64,000 bases of DNA from Candidatus Nitronauta litoralis. Lineage in GTDB: Bacteria > Nitrospinota > Nitrospinia > Nitrospinales > Nitrospinaceae. Positions 1,967 to 49,194 of the stretch are shown in pieces. Position numbers and translations under genes: made by a program. Every line of letters starts with the position of its first letter. Within the stretch, counting starts at the first letter, position 1. Location: contig CP048685.1 of assembly GCA_015698285.1 (NCBI GenBank), positions 868,001 to 932,000 of the forward strand. Direction: 5' to 3'. The notes beneath the pieces were generated by a model that saw only the letters and a program-made list of their open reading frames with translations, made no database searches and was not told the origin of the DNA.

Positions 1967-2153
1967 ACATTTCCGGCGGGCTTTGATATCACCCTTCCAC
2001 TAAGGAAACTCTTGCATAAGGGTTAAAACAGAGGCCAGAAATTTGGAGGCCCCCCTTCGACTTAGCTCAGGGTAAACTCCGTGAAGAAACTCGCCTTTGC
2101 TTTTGATTTTAGAGTTAAACAAAAGTCCCCCTTACAAAGGGGGAAGGGGGAAG

Positions 2154-2203
2154 GGGGAAGGCGAAGCCAGGGGGATTTGAACCCGTGTTCAGCCAAAAAA
2201 CTG
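2154..2203. repeat. 50-bp dispersed repeat, copy 1
   Basis: A purine-rich start (GGGGGAAGGCGAAGCC) is followed by GGGGGATTTGAACCCG and AGCCAAAAAACTG. An essentially identical copy is at 3991-4042, so the two copies bracket beta-roll paralog A. Both are preceded by a CCCCCTT...AAGGGGG palindrome. The rest of the 1920-2280 gap holds a copy of the CCTTCGAC...GCTCAGGG repeat at 2055-2072 and no gene. Confidence 0.75.
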
Positions 2204-2288
2204 TACCCAAAATAATCCCAACCGTCTTTATTCAATCTCGCAAAAACTTCCCACTCGTTAGCCTTTCTCCAACACTCTCAACCCATCC

Positions 2289-2403: not shown

Positions 2404-3864
2404 ATGAAAAAGTTCCTACGGGGCGGTGCCATTATTTTAATGACACTCGCCATTTCCATACCGGCTCAGGCACAAACAGTTGAAGAACGACTGACAGCCC
2501 TTGAAACATCCATGGCCAATGTTGAGTTGTTATCCACACAGTTGTTTCAACTTTTCTCGGCATTGCAACCGGATATCACCGCCATCCTCAATGCATTAGC
2601 GACCCAGCAGTTGGAAGTCGCCACTCTTCAAGCTTCCATGACGGCTGTACAATCAGATGTAAGTGCTTTACAGACAGGGCAAACGGAGCTGCAAGCCAGT
2701 CAGGGAACACAGGATACAGATATCAGTGAACTGCAAACCCGTTTAAATGGGGTTTCCCGTACTGGCAACACATTACTCTTAACCAACATGAACCTGCAGG
2801 TGGTTTCCGGTTCCGGCTCAACGGACGGTGGAGTCAATGGACGAGGCAACATCATCATCGGCTATAACGAGGCGATCTTCCCTTATTTAGGAGCCGACCT
2901 GCCGACAAGCAACAAAACGGGCTCACACAACCTGATCGTCGGTAAAGGATCAAACTATTCCAGTTACGGAGCTATTGTTTCCGGCCTCGATAATATTTCA
3001 TCTAATCCCTACGGATCCCTGATTGGAGGCAACCGAAATACCGCTAACGGAGATTTTGTTGCAGTTAGCGGCGGCCTTAGAAACAACGCCCAAAACACCT
3101 ACGCCAGCGTCAGTGGCGGACAAAACAACACAGCGTCAGGCATCGCCTCCAGCGTCAGTGGTGGCGATAGCAACATCGCATCGAGTCTGGCTTCCAGTGT
3201 CAGTGGCGGGCTCAACAACAGGGCAAGAATCCAGGCCAATGCAAGTGTCAGTGGAGGGAGTGGCAACATCGCCTCCGGACTTAATTCCAGCATCAGCGGT
3301 GGATTGAACAATTCCGCTTCGGGATCCCAATCAAGCCTCAGCGGCGGCAATCAAAACACCGCCTCCGGATTTAATTCAAGCGTCAGTGGTGGTTCGTTTA
3401 ACTCGGCTACAAGCACCCATTCCAGCGTCAGCGGCGGCAACCAAAACACCGCCTCTGGTTTTCATTCCAGCGTCAGTGGTGGCGATAGCAACATCGCATC
3501 GAGCTTTGCGTCCAGTGTCAGCGGGGGCAATAACAATAGAGCCATGACTCAATCTTTTGCGAGTGTCAGTGGCGGGCGAAGCAACATTGCCTCGGGTATC
3601 GCCTCCAGTATCAGTGGCGGAGAAAGTAATACGTCCACAAGCTCAGCATCCAGTGTCAGCGGCGGAAGGGACAATACAGCTTCCGGCCCCCAATCCAGTG
3701 TCAGTGGTGGAAATACTAATACTGCATCCGGATTGACTTCGAGTGTCAGTGGTGGGGGTTTGAATAGCGCCACCAATATTCAGTCAACGGTAAGTGGCGG
3801 AGTGAGTCGATCCGCAACCGGAGTCAACGATTGGCGCGCAGGCAGTCTATTCGAAACGCAATAG
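2404..3864 (+). CDS. Secreted coiled-coil/beta-roll repeat protein, paralog A
   Basis: The protein has 486 residues. Residues 1-23 are a signal peptide ending AQA. Residues about 25-115 are heptad-like coiled coil (VEERLTALETSMANVELLST). A conserved linker (LQVVSGSGSTDG, NGRGNIIIGYNE, KTGSHNLIVGKG) precedes about twenty 15-residue repeats of the type SSVSGGNQNTASGFH. The protein ends with DWRAGSLFETQ. The repeats resemble YadA-head/Hep_Hag left-handed beta-roll repeats, which suggests a trimeric fibre. Unlike YadA, the coiled coil comes first and no C-terminal beta-barrel anchor is present. GAGAGGGG lies 5' of ATG 2404. The matching 45-bp DNA repeats should be prone to slippage and recombination. 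Function is unknown; extracellular matrix, adhesin or surface layer are guesses. Confidence 0.85.
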   Translation: MKKFLRGGAIILMTLAISIPAQAQTVEERLTALETSMANVELLSTQLFQLFSALQPDITAILNALATQQLEVATLQASMTAVQSDVSALQTGQTELQASQGTQDTDISELQTRLNGVSRTGNTLLLTNMNLQVVSGSGSTDGGVNGRGNIIIGYNEAIFPYLGADLPTSNKTGSHNLIVGKGSNYSSYGAIVSGLDNISSNPYGSLIGGNRNTANGDFVAVSGGLRNNAQNTYASVSGGQNNTASGIASSVSGGDSNIASSLASSVSGGLNNRARIQANASVSGGSGNIASGLNSSISGGLNNSASGSQSSLSGGNQNTASGFNSSVSGGSFNSATSTHSSVSGGNQNTASGFHSSVSGGDSNIASSFASSVSGGNNNRAMTQSFASVSGGRSNIASGIASSISGGESNTSTSSASSVSGGRDNTASGPQSSVSGGNTNTASGLTSSVSGGGLNSATNIQSTVSGGVSRSATGVNDWRAGSLFETQ

Positions 3865-3896: not shown

Positions 3897-3927
3897 GGGG
3901 GGGGCTTCATGCGCCTCCCTTTTTTTT
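3897..3927 (+). terminator. Rho-independent terminator of paralog A
   Basis: A G-rich arm at 3897-3905, loop TTCAT and arm GCGCCTCCC (3911-3919) form a stem with one mismatch and one wobble, followed by eight T. The arrangement matches the T-tailed hairpins behind paralog C and the collapsed copy. Confidence 0.8.
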
Positions 3928-3947: not shown

Positions 3948-3990
3948 GAAAAAATTTTCAAATGAGAACATGATATTCCCCCTTCCACGA

Positions 3991-4042
3991 AGGGGGAAGG
4001 CGAAGCCAGGGGGATTTGAACCCGTGTTCAGCCAAAAAACTG
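3991..4042. repeat. 50-bp dispersed repeat, copy 2
   Basis: Near-identical to 2154-2203 (GGAAGGCGAAGCC, GGGGGATTTGAACCCG, AGCCAAAAAACTG), with the palindromic CCCCCTTCC...GGGGG start at 3978. With copy 1 it flanks paralog A in direct orientation. This would suit mobilisation or duplication of the segment by homologous recombination. Confidence 0.75.
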
Positions 4043-4160
4043 CTCCCATAAACACCTCCCTAAAACTCAACTCGATTTTCGATTCAATGGCCCGCAGTCT
4101 GGTTTACAATAGCTATCAAACAAATTTTCGCCCGACTCGCACTGGATCGATTCCCCCCTT

Positions 4161-6665: not shown

Positions 6666-6983
6666 AAACAACTTTTCAAGAGATCTTTGCATCAATGCTT
6701 TTTTATAAGGAGCAAGCCAGAAGGCCCCCTTCGACAGGCTCTGGGCGATACATTTAACCAAAGGATTGTCATGCAGAGTGTGAATTTTTCCTGACCTCAA
6801 CCTATCCCCCACCTTCAATTAAATTGAATTTCGGCTTGTTAAAATTTTATTCTCATTCCTAAACTGATTCTTTATTTCCATCCACATTGACAGAACCTAC
6901 TGACTAATTTACTTTTCGTGACAGACCTTGAAATCAAATCAATACACGTTCAGACCAAAATAATTTTTGGGAGGGGAATAAAG
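6666..6983. other. Intergenic region between priA and paralog B
   Basis: It contains a copy of the CCCCCTTCGAC...GCTC repeat at about 6725-6745, resembling 2055-2072. A TTGACA lies at about 6888, but no matching -10 box of the family type follows. The conserved promoter and leader element of paralogs A and C is not present. GGGAGGGG before 6984 is the ribosome site of paralog B. No gene is supported. Confidence 0.5.
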
Positions 6984-8264
6984 ATGAAAAAAGTATTCCA
7001 GGGATTTTCTGCATTATTAATTTTACTGATCCTTTCTATGCCCGCACAGGCGCAAACTGTAGAGGAACGTTTGACGGCTCTTGAAACTTCTATGGCCAAT
7101 GTGGAATTGCTTTCAACGCAATTGTTCAGCCTGTTCTCTGCACTACAACCGGACATACTGGCAATTCTCAACGCCCTCGCCACCCAGCAGGCGGAAGTGG
7201 CAACCCTGCAATCTGACATGGGAGACCTGCAGACCCTGTTAGCGGGTGTTTCACGAACAGGGGATACTTTGCTGTTAACCGACATGAACCTGCAGGTCGT
7301 CTCCGGTTCAGGCTCTACCGATGGCACTGTGAACGGGCGCGGCAATATTATTGTGGGTTACAACGAAGACATCTTCCCTTATCTCGGCGGAGGGCTTCCC
7401 GCCAGCGACAAAACCGGATCGCATAACCTGATCGTCGGCAAGGGTCTGAATTATTCAAGCTATGGGGGTATCGTTTCGGGAATTGATAACATTGCGTCTG
7501 AACGCTTCGCTTCGTTAATCAGCGGCAACCGCAATCAGGCCACGGCTTTTGGCGCAACATTATTGGGCGGGCAAAACAACACCGCATCCAATTCCTACTC
7601 CAGTATCAGCGGAGGCCGGAACAATACAGCTTCCGGTATCCATGCCACCATCAGTGGAGGAGAAAACAACGCCGCCGACGGAGGTCTGTCCCACGTAAGC
7701 GGAGGATCTGGAAATGATGCCACAGCCCTCTATTCCAGTGTCAGTGGTGGTAGAGACAATACTGCATCTGGTGATTATTCCAGTGTCGGCGGTGGAAGAG
7801 ACAATACGGCCTCTGGTGAATCTTCAAGTGCCAGTGGTGGAGAAAGCAACACCGCATCAGGTCCAGAATCCAGTGTCAGTGGTGGAAAAAACAACATAGC
7901 CTCTGCAGACCATTCCAGCGTGAGTGGAGGATTGAACAACGAAGCATCCGGTACAGAATCCAGTGTCAGTGGTGGATATTTAAATGATGCAATCGGAAAT
8001 GACAGTAGCGTCTTAGGCGGCTTTGGCAATTCAGCCACCGGGGTGAACTCCAGTGTAAGCGGCGGAGCAGACAATATAGCCTCCGGAGGCTCCTCCAGTG
8101 TTTTGGGTGGACTTGAAAATGAAGCGTCCGGTGGGAGTTCAACCGTCAGCGGTGGAGAAAGTAACACTGCGGCCGGGCCAGTGTCCAGCGTGAGCGGCGG
8201 ACTCAATAGAAGCACGGCAACCTTCTACGATTGGGCGGCAGGATCCTTGTTCGAAACCAATTAG
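6984..8264 (+). CDS. Secreted coiled-coil/beta-roll repeat protein, paralog B
   Basis: ATG 6984 is preferred over the in-frame ATG 6918. It has GGGAGGGG upstream and begins a signal peptide (MKKVFQGFSALLILLILSM, AQA cleavage at about residue 23), as in paralogs A and C. The 426-residue protein has a shorter coiled coil (about 25-85), the family linker (LQVVSGSGSTDG, NGRGNIIVGYNE), about seventeen 15-residue repeats (SSVSGGRDNTASGDY) and the cap YDWAAGSLFETN. The N-terminal 50 residues are almost identical to paralog A, while the repeat order and count differ. It lacks the promoter and leader cassette shared by A and C. A secreted or surface trimeric fibre is inference; the substrate or partner is unknown. 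Confidence 0.85.
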   Translation: MKKVFQGFSALLILLILSMPAQAQTVEERLTALETSMANVELLSTQLFSLFSALQPDILAILNALATQQAEVATLQSDMGDLQTLLAGVSRTGDTLLLTDMNLQVVSGSGSTDGTVNGRGNIIVGYNEDIFPYLGGGLPASDKTGSHNLIVGKGLNYSSYGGIVSGIDNIASERFASLISGNRNQATAFGATLLGGQNNTASNSYSSISGGRNNTASGIHATISGGENNAADGGLSHVSGGSGNDATALYSSVSGGRDNTASGDYSSVGGGRDNTASGESSSASGGESNTASGPESSVSGGKNNIASADHSSVSGGLNNEASGTESSVSGGYLNDAIGNDSSVLGGFGNSATGVNSSVSGGADNIASGGSSSVLGGLENEASGGSSTVSGGESNTAAGPVSSVSGGLNRSTATFYDWAAGSLFETN

Positions 8265-27800: not shown

Positions 27801-27839
27801 AAAAAAAACCGGGGAAAACGCCAGAAGCATCTTCCCCGG
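27801..27839 (-). terminator. Terminator left behind by the collapsed beta-roll copy
   Basis: On the minus strand, CCGGGGAAGATGC and GGCGTTTTCCCCGG pair over about 13 positions around TTCT, followed by eight T. It sits 34 bp after the remnant stop, as in paralogs A and C. Confidence 0.85.
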
Positions 27840-27872
27840 GTGGGGAATTTACCAAATTTTTCAAAAATTGCA

Positions 27873-28010
27873 TTAGAAGTCCTGAAACAAGCCTCCGGCG
27901 ACCCAATCTTAAATGCCAAACGCAGATCGACTCAACCCTCCGCTGACAGTAGAAGCTTGCCCGAAAGCGTTGCTCAATGAACCGCCGCTGACGCTGGAAT
28001 AATTCATTCC
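27873..28010 (-). pseudogene. Collapsed beta-roll paralog: leader fused to 3' end
   Basis: On the minus strand, repeats NYSSVSGGSLSNAFGQAST and VSGGLSRSAFGI are followed by an in-frame TAA where family members have a tyrosine, then DWVAGGLFQDF and a stop. The upstream leader (GCAGGTTGGAATGAATTATT) matches that of paralog A up to TTCC, where it joins the repeat codons TTCCAGCGTC. The start codon, signal peptide, coiled coil and most repeats are therefore deleted, probably at TTCC microhomology. The promoter and terminator remain, so a short non-coding transcript is possible. Confidence 0.9.
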
Positions 28011-28022
28011 AACCTGCGAAAA

Positions 28023-28075
28023 GTGATCTCCCCCAGAAATTGTGGCGATTATCCACTAAAGATGGGTTATGTCAA
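28023..28075 (-). promoter_or_regulatory. Promoter and leader element of the collapsed copy
   Basis: On the minus strand TTGACA (28070-28075), a 16-bp spacer and GATAAT (28048-28053) are followed by CTGGGGGAGATCAC (28022-28035). This is the same cassette as at 2289-2340 and 29638-29692, still intact although the gene is destroyed. Confidence 0.8.
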
Positions 28076-28222
28076 AATTCGAATCACCTAGCCAGTTAGG
28101 TGCTTGCGAGTGATAAAAATTAGTGTGGCTGAACACAAAACCTGGGAAGAGGACACAGGCTTTTTTTCTTTCCTTGAGTCTGCTGAAACCCCGAAGTTCC
28201 CGCTGGCTGTGCGCCGAGCCTG

Positions 28223-28260
28223 AAAAAAACGGGGAAAGCATGTGAAGCGCCTCCCCCGAG
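28223..28260 (-). terminator. Terminator of paralog C
   Basis: On the minus strand, CGGGGGAGGCG and CATGCTTTCCCCG pair around TTCA with some wobble pairs, then seven T follow. It ends the transcript about 40 bp after the paralog C stop. Confidence 0.85.
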
Positions 28261-28298
28261 GAAAAACAGGTTACAAATTAAAAAATCCCAAATTAGTG

Positions 28299-29573
28299 CT
28301 AATTGTCCTGAAACAGGGCTCCGGCTTTCCAGTCGTAGTTGCCGTTGGCAAACCGGTTCAAGCCTCCACTGACAACGGATTGGGTTCCGGCAGACGAACC
28401 GTTTCGTCCTCCACTGACGGTGGCCCCGCTGCCTGTAGCCTGGTTGAGAACGCCGCCACTGATAGTGGATCCATTACCCGAAGCGGTGTTGTTGCTTCCG
28501 CCCAGAATACTGGAATAGAAGTTGGATGCCGTGTTGTTTAATCCACCATTGATGCTTGAAGATACCCCCATGGCCGTGTTGCCTTCCCCGCCACTGACGC
28601 TGGCTGCTTCAACTGATGCGGTATTATTTTCTCCACCGGTGACACTGGTATAAGGACCGGAGGCGGTATTCGTGTGTCCTCCACTGACACTGGAGTCCAC
28701 ATCGGAAGCGGTATTGCCATTGCCGCCACTAACGCTTGCTCTTGATCCGGAAGCGGTATTGTTGAATCCACCACTGACACTTGAATAGGAGCCGTCAGCG
28801 GTATTGTTCTGCCCACCACTCACTGTAGCGGCCAGACCATTTGCTATATTACTGGTTCCACCCAACATACCCGAATTGATCCAGATCGCGTGATTGAGAG
28901 TCCCTCCGCTTACTGTGGAATAATTGCCTGATGCCTGATTGCGGTTGCCTCCCAAGGTAGATGCGTATTTTGCTCCGGACACATTATTCAAACCCGACAC
29001 AATCGCGCCAAAGCTGGCATAGTTATTTCCTTTTCCAATCACCAGATTATGCGATCCGGTTTTGGTGCTGGCAGGAAGCCCACCCCCGAGAAACGGAAAA
29101 ATATCCTCGTTGTAACCAATGATGATATTGCCACGACCATTGACAGTCCCTTCCGTGCTACCGGATCCAGACACGACTTGCAGGTTCATACCTGTAAAAA
29201 GAAGCTGAGACCCGGTACGGGTGACTCCGTTAAAACGGGACTGCAACTCATTCACATCGTTCGTCAGTGTTGTATTGCTGGATTGCAAGGCGGCAATGGT
29301 CGCCTGCGCTGCCACCAGGTTTTCTTCCGCCGTAGTCAAATCGGCTCTTAAATTGGAAATTTCTTCCTGATTCTCTGCAACTACTTCCAGAGTGTTTAAA
29401 AGATCCTGTTGCTGGTTGTTGAACAATGTGAATAATTGGGTCGACAACAATTCGACACTTGCCATTTGGCCTTCCAGTGTTGTCACCCGTTCTTCAAGAG
29501 TTTGTGCCTGAACGGCCATAGAAAAAGAAAGTGTTAACAGGAAAACACTTCCAATTATTAAAAGCTTCTTCAT
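28299..29573 (-). CDS. Secreted coiled-coil/beta-roll repeat protein, paralog C
   Basis: The 424-residue protein has the family layout. A signal peptide (KLLIIGSVFLLTLSFSMAVQ, cleavage near AQA) is followed by a long coiled coil at about 25-110 (EERVTTLEGQMASVELLSTQ, LRADLTTAEENLVAAQATIA). The linker includes LQVVSGSGSTEG and NGRGNIIIGYNE. About fifteen repeats such as SSVSGGFNNTASGSR follow, then the cap YDWKAGALFQDN. GGGAGGA lies nine bases 5' of ATG 29573. A family promoter cassette and a T-tailed terminator frame it. Compared with A and B the first 45 residues diverge while the linker is nearly identical. No outer-membrane anchor is present; secreted fibre assembly is inference. Confidence 0.85.
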   Translation of the reverse strand: MKKLLIIGSVFLLTLSFSMAVQAQTLEERVTTLEGQMASVELLSTQLFTLFNNQQQDLLNTLEVVAENQEEISNLRADLTTAEENLVAAQATIAALQSSNTTLTNDVNELQSRFNGVTRTGSQLLFTGMNLQVVSGSGSTEGTVNGRGNIIIGYNEDIFPFLGGGLPASTKTGSHNLVIGKGNNYASFGAIVSGLNNVSGAKYASTLGGNRNQASGNYSTVSGGTLNHAIWINSGMLGGTSNIANGLAATVSGGQNNTADGSYSSVSGGFNNTASGSRASVSGGNGNTASDVDSSVSGGHTNTASGPYTSVTGGENNTASVEAASVSGGEGNTAMGVSSSINGGLNNTASNFYSSILGGSNNTASGNGSTISGGVLNQATGSGATVSGGRNGSSAGTQSVVSGGLNRFANGNYDWKAGALFQDN

Positions 29574-29637
29574 TTTTCATTCCTCCCAAAATTTCTGCAT
29601 TTTCATTGGGAGATTCCTGATTGCTCTTCGGCAAAAA

Positions 29638-29692
29638 TAATCTCCCCCCAGGTTGTTGCAGGCAATTATCCGGGGAAGAAGGGTCATGTCAA
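29638..29692 (-). promoter_or_regulatory. Promoter and leader element of paralog C
   Basis: On the minus strand TTGACA (29687-29692), 16 bp, GATAAT (29665-29670), then CTGGGGGGAGATTA (29638-29651). The leader to ATG 29573 is about 85 nt. The rest of the 29574-29997 gap shows no gene; 29693-29997 must hold the aroA promoter, but I cannot pick one with confidence. Confidence 0.8.
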
Positions 29693-49011: not shown

Positions 49012-49097
49012 GCCCCGGTTCTCCCGAAAAAACAAAAATGGCCGTTCTCCCATTAGGTAGGGATACGGCCAAGTGAGGGTACACGCATTAAAATTGC

Positions 49098-49185
49098 GCC
49101 ACTTTCCTTCGCTGGTATTAACCAGATCAGGTTCAAAGGGTCGTCTGCCAAGACTCTCAGTTCGCGTAGAACACCCCCAGTTGGC
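49098..49185 (-). promoter_or_regulatory. TPP riboswitch controlling the thi operon
   Basis: On the minus strand GCCAACT (49179-49185) and AGTGGC (49098-49103) form P1. Between them lie GGGGGTG, the thi-box CTGAGAG, then ACCCTTTGAACCTGATCTGG and TTAATACCAGCGAAGG, the universal TPP-aptamer sequence. It precedes thiS by about 90-150 nt, so thiamine pyrophosphate should repress thiS-thiG-thiE-thiC and possibly the genes beyond. Confidence 0.96.
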
Positions 49186-49194
49186 TTTGGAGCT

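Follow-up and report, generated by a model that had tools for sequence, protein, structure and literature searches.

Candidatus Nitronauta litoralis EB is a marine member of the Nitrospinae that oxidises nitrite (PMC8026999). The window, the whole stretch of 64,000 nucleotides analysed here, covers bases 868001-932000 of a contig of 3,921,641 bases and carries three members of a family of genes for beta-roll proteins and a collapsed copy of such a gene. The genes are paralog A (2404-3864, + strand, 486 aa), paralog B (6984-8264, + strand, 426 aa) and paralog C (28299-29573, - strand, 424 aa). Besides a beta-roll, the protein of paralog A has a signal peptide and a coiled coil. The family proteins in general have both of these together with repeats of 15 residues (SSVSGGxxNTASG). 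A profile built from paralogs A, B and C matched the head of the UspA1 adhesin (3pr7) with an E value of 1.4e-27, and beta-roll head repeats are present. In the model of the paralog B protein, repeated strands come after a long helix; searching PDB folds with the single-chain model yielded no match at E<0.001. The family proteins resemble the heads of trimeric autotransporter adhesins (UspA1, YadA) in having beta-roll repeats that match the UspA1 head. They differ from these adhesins in being short and secreted-looking, and no YadA C-terminal membrane anchor was found in paralogs A, B or C.

A protein search of the whole genome returned 44 matching pieces of this gene family. These make up 20 family units in several clusters, including the collapsed copy and, near 407 kb, a pseudogene, and one divergent family member lies apart from the 20 at 1129 kb. 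The nearest named relatives found are the Nitrospinaceae MAGs OFTM7 and OFTM387. One tandem array (L038, G000:C1:402830-414726) contains eight units, one of them a pseudogene. Several of its units have a second promoter form, TTGACA-15-CATAnT, which is also seen in OFTM387 (L079), and some of those lack the leader hairpin SL1 described below. Two neighbouring units elsewhere (L042, G000:C1:1942090 and 1943714) have an identical promoter, leader and protein N-terminus; judged from the DNA, this identity is the mark of a recent duplication or gene conversion. The paralog A unit is flanked by 63-nt direct repeats that are 95% identical (window 2150-2212 and 3989-4051). A third copy of this repeat (79%) is found at genome position 2498381, and its 28-nt core recurs at about nine further places in the genome.

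Promoters, terminators and the transcription unit

Judged by TTGACA- and TATAAT-like hexamers at a spacing of 15-18, sigma-70-type promoters precede paralog A, paralog C and the collapsed copy, with 10 or 11 of 12 consensus bases and 16-nt spacing in each case. The sequence-only reading had described TTGACW, a 16-bp spacer, GATAAT and a G-rich element for these three copies, and every part is where it had been placed. The promoter is TTGACT-16-GATAAT before paralog A (2289-2316, + strand, 10 of 12 consensus bases) and TTGACA-16-GATAAT before both paralog C (29665-29692, - strand) and the collapsed copy (28048-28075, - strand). The distance from GATAAT to CTGGGG had been put at about 12 bp, and measures 11 nt in A, 13 in C and 11 in the collapsed copy. 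Paralog B had been said to lack the 5′ cassette. GATAAT and the G-rich element are indeed absent there, but a diverged promoter is kept (TTGACA-15-TTTACT, 6887-6913, + strand), consisting of TTGACA at 6887-6892 and a weaker TTTACT 15 nt on (6908-6913), with no SL1. Paralog B also keeps the family ribosome-binding site, GGGAGGGG, and has no T-run terminator.

Across the family, TTGACN and a -10-like hexamer precede all 20 units of this genome, usually at 16-nt spacing. The -10 hexamer is mostly GATAAT or CATAAT 16 nt on, with a subset that has CATAnT at 15 nt. The element itself, as CTGGGGGAGAT or a diverged form (CTGAGGGAGAT, CTGGGGGCGAT, CTGGGGAAAGCGA, CTGGGGAGAAG or CAGAGGAAGAT), is found in 13 of the 20 leaders and is missing from seven.

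The GC-rich hairpin and T-run reported at the ends of A, C and the collapsed copy were found in all three (3897-3927, + strand; 28223-28258, - strand; 27803-27839, - strand). A common terminator type, GGGGAAGGCGC-ATGCGCCTTCCCC-T7, lies about 27-42 nt after the stop codon in most copies, a few having a terminator missed by the strict scan or a broken T-run. The terminator pattern has eight matches in the genome, all in family clusters, and the second species has terminators of the same form. Where copies stand in tandem, most end in a terminator of their own. Duplication of entire transcription units, as had been proposed from the window, is supported because the promoter type is shared by 20 of 20 units and the terminator consensus by most copies, and because the leaders at c1942090 and c1943714 are identical. 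Comparison of the copies supports a view of each gene as an independent unit, made up of a sigma-70-type promoter, a structured leader, a beta-roll gene and an intrinsic terminator, that would have been copied whole.

The collapsed copy (27803-28075, - strand) keeps promoter, SL1 and terminator but lacks both a start codon and a ribosome-binding site. It includes a remnant of the C-terminal repeats (27882-28025, - strand), recognised as a protein match with a stop. If transcribed, it would give a noncoding RNA of roughly 240 nt.

Family specificity and structure of the leader

The exact 11-mer CTGGGGGAGAT occurs nine times in the 3.92-Mb genome. Five of the nine occurrences are in family leaders, and the other four fall within long ORFs that are unrelated and lack the promoter. 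The backwards control of this 11-mer has no occurrence in the genome, and the cassette is more than chance. A covariance model of promoter plus hairpin (R1), built from seven leaders of this genome and one leader of a congener, gave 10 matches at E<0.01 in the whole genome, all upstream of family genes. Outside the family its best match in this genome had an E value of 0.17, and the non-family matches (L094 and L096) look like chance.

In the congener OFTM7 (G002), R1 gave nine matches at E<0.01, eight of which are not training sequences, at coordinates about 120 nt before family genes. Eight other relatives gave no match below an E value of 0.06. Four of those eight have no family-profile match at E<=1e-10, and in G011, G017, G018 and G021 the family-profile matches are mainly to the part adjoining the repeats. 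A genome search for promoter plus element had been set as the test of the sequence-only reading, and the combination was found only before the family, in this genome and in OFTM7; the element is known from these two species. An Rfam scan found no family above the gathering threshold at the leader, and within the window only a TPP riboswitch (RF00059, 71.6 bits, window 49087-49188, - strand).

The 11-mer makes up the loop and 3′ arm of a predicted hairpin, SL1, a point that the first reading of the DNA had missed. SL1 of paralog A is ATCTC-TGGGG-GAGAT (2324-2338, + strand), with CTGGGGGAGAT at 2328-2338. That of the collapsed copy is ATTTC-TGGGG-GAGAT, with a U-G wobble (28026-28040, - strand), and has CTGGGGGAGAT at 28036-28026. 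Paralog C keeps the element (CTGGGGGGAGAT, 29640-29651, - strand) and has lost the 5′ arm, in place of which a downstream stretch, AATCTCCC (29615-29608), could pair with the element. The hairpin at c1942090 is GTAATCTT-TGGGG-GAGATTAC, and the second species has AATCTT-TTGGGG-AAGATT, in which the loop-adjoining pair is U-A instead of C-G.

On the model alignment, which is biased towards its own structure, 94.4% of the SL1 cells pair, compared with 36-54% in slid controls. Eight cells are changed on both sides, and none of 500 shuffles scored as high; a further eight changes are one-sided, and all of these lead to G-U. The covariation is limited, as the two-sided changes fall in two of the five pairs and the sequences are related. 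Since the alignment favours the modelled structure, we turned to an arm-exchange test that needs no alignment. When arms were swapped among 21 leaders, 2 of 2000 trials paired as strongly as the native arms, and 10 of 2000 did so when the 5′ arms were shuffled. The native energies of paralog A include a competing stem, which would start upstream of the predicted transcription start. Other copies have rebuilt stems round the G-rich loop, CGCC/GGCG at c402830 and TCGC/GCGA at c405708, and one leader of the second species (gL070) has an unrelated 11-bp stem, GCAGGCTTATT/AATAAGTCTGC, around GGAGAAG. SL1 is short (mostly 5-9 bp, -1.6 to -7 kcal/mol) and is not always selected when the full leader is folded, and paralog C, c1912388 and gL046 keep the element with a weak or absent stem. 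We regard the structure as very probably real. It is a stem-loop with evolutionary support for pairing, as the class of 5′-terminal stabilising stem-loops requires, and pairing with covariation joins the cassette and its family specificity among the features demonstrated in these DNA sequences.

Most leaders have a second predicted hairpin, SL2, between SL1 and the ribosome-binding site, and its sequence differs from copy to copy. The region from SL1 to the ribosome-binding site folds better than its dinucleotide shuffles, with a combined z of -6.8 over 20 leaders when paralogs are treated as independent; SL2 of paralog A (2346-2379, + strand) has an MFE of -12.3 and a z of -2.3. The start codon is preceded by a conserved stretch close to TTTTGGGAGGGGTCC, a strong ribosome-binding site. 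In paralog A the ribosome-binding region, conserved in the family, is TTGAGAGGGG (2388-2397, + strand). In some folds from this genome, such as those of paralog A and c1915356, the 5′ arm of SL1 pairs with the ribosome-binding site. We did not adopt a riboswitch-like exchange between the two, as the second species has an arm that, by eye, matches poorly. A small leader peptide behind the Shine-Dalgarno-like element was rejected, as no conserved start codon was seen by eye in the leaders.

Possible roles of SL1

The sequence-only reading had pointed to a shared regulator or to control at the RNA level. RNA-level control fits better and a shared DNA regulator less well, because the arms covary, G-U pairs are tolerated and further, variable hairpins are present. 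Operators are classically found as dyads near +1 to +20, and the palindrome ATCTC-N5-GAGAT downstream of the start might be a DNA operator for a family repressor: its symmetry is at that position, it occurs only before the family and it is nearly perfect at c1942090. We nonetheless consider an operator improbable, because the TGGGG centre is better conserved than the arms, the spacing of the arms shifts by one base between species and the distance to the -10 hexamer varies from about 11 to 15 nt. Changes in the arms are compensated or, if one-sided, all G-U, some copies have different stems round the G-rich loop, and the adjoining leader is structured too, all of which count against an operator as well. 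It is about equally improbable that the element has no function and is common to the copies only through recent duplication. The leaders at c1942090 and c1943714 are identical, as such a history would have it, and the seven copies without the element may still be expressed. Across the paralogs and the two species, however, promoter, SL1 loop and ribosome-binding site have been preserved although the leader sequence between them can no longer be aligned, and stems have been rebuilt rather than decayed.

Other alternatives also place the action in RNA. CsrA might bind GGA in SL1 and at the ribosome-binding site, giving repression or protection as in glgC. CsrA is encoded in the genome, GGA is kept in nearly all element-bearing leaders, and a second GGA is often found in the ribosome-binding region (GGGAGGAG); a two-site leader with one site in a hairpin loop is the glgC pattern (PMC7652899). 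The SELEX consensus for CsrA is RUACARGGAUGU with GGA inside the loop (PMC7652899), and a site of this kind with GGA in the loop was not found in the leaders: there is no ACA, and the A of GGA is in the stem in most copies. SL1 at c402830 has no GGA at all. Control of the CsrA type is for these reasons unlikely. The G-rich loop could instead be a pairing target for a C-rich small RNA or for the unit's own terminator arm (CUUCCCC), and pairing of a leader with a terminator arm has a precedent in icaR of Staphylococcus aureus (PMC3868564). Every copy tested shows complementarity between element and terminator arm (-7.5 to -16.5 kcal/mol), yet the native pairs have no clear advantage, since 159 of 2000 swaps were as good, and a stable stem already occupies the terminator arm. 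We set aside 5′-3′ UTR pairing between SL1 and this arm, which is complementary but not copy-specific, and a pairing target of either kind is quite improbable. It is more doubtful still that SL1 marks a private RNA regulon, in which a factor would bind the loop and the noncoding RNA of the collapsed copy would titrate that factor. If this were true, one trans-acting factor, a protein or a small RNA, would set the expression of the whole adhesin-like family.

We find copied units together with an SL1 that acts in RNA to be the best explanation as a whole, and hold it with moderate confidence. Each functional step of this proposal is one that we infer. Transcription would start at or just before SL1, the predicted start being about 7 nt after the -10 box, and SL1 would then form the 5′ end of the mRNA. 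There it could protect the 5′ end from end-dependent decay by sequestering it, and its purine-rich loop, which resembles a Shine-Dalgarno or GGA motif, might be shown to the 30S subunit or to CsrA. The messages of the family might in this way be stabilised or translated together. A role of SL1 as a stabilising or translation-controlling hairpin is a more tentative suggestion, and binding of the ribosome or CsrA would be its next most likely detail. In computed duplex energy the loop region resembles a Shine-Dalgarno sequence: it pairs with a generic anti-Shine-Dalgarno sequence at -5.5 to -14.8 kcal/mol, and the real site at -8.3 to -14.7.

Nitrospinota are the main marine nitrite oxidisers, and to our knowledge their cis-acting RNAs have been little studied. 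The consensus match provides a testable candidate leader RNA in this group. It also shows that a family resembling surface proteins spreads as complete promoter-leader-gene-terminator units, so that a single RNA element could determine how strongly many paralogs are expressed together.

Relation to known leader elements

The SL1 leader would be a new leader RNA of a kind already known. According to works listed in PMC3997798, 5′-terminal stem-loops slow the decay of ompA, papA and aprE, and a Shine-Dalgarno-like run near the 5′ end, known as STAB-SD, has the same effect. SL1 is like the hairpins of ompA and papA in E. coli and of aprE in B. subtilis in being predicted at the 5′ end before a strong ribosome-binding site. 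It differs from them in having a conserved G-rich loop, in marking a single paralogous family and in being known from sequence alone. With STAB-SD of Bacillus thuringiensis cry3A it has in common a Shine-Dalgarno-like purine run near the 5′ end and far from the start codon, but the purine run of SL1 is partly held in a hairpin and its binding by the 30S subunit is putative. CsrA/RsmA sites of the glgC type are similar in having GGA both in a 5′ hairpin and at the ribosome-binding site, in a genome with a CsrA gene, whereas the leaders described here lack the ACARGGAUG consensus and present GGA only partly in the loop.
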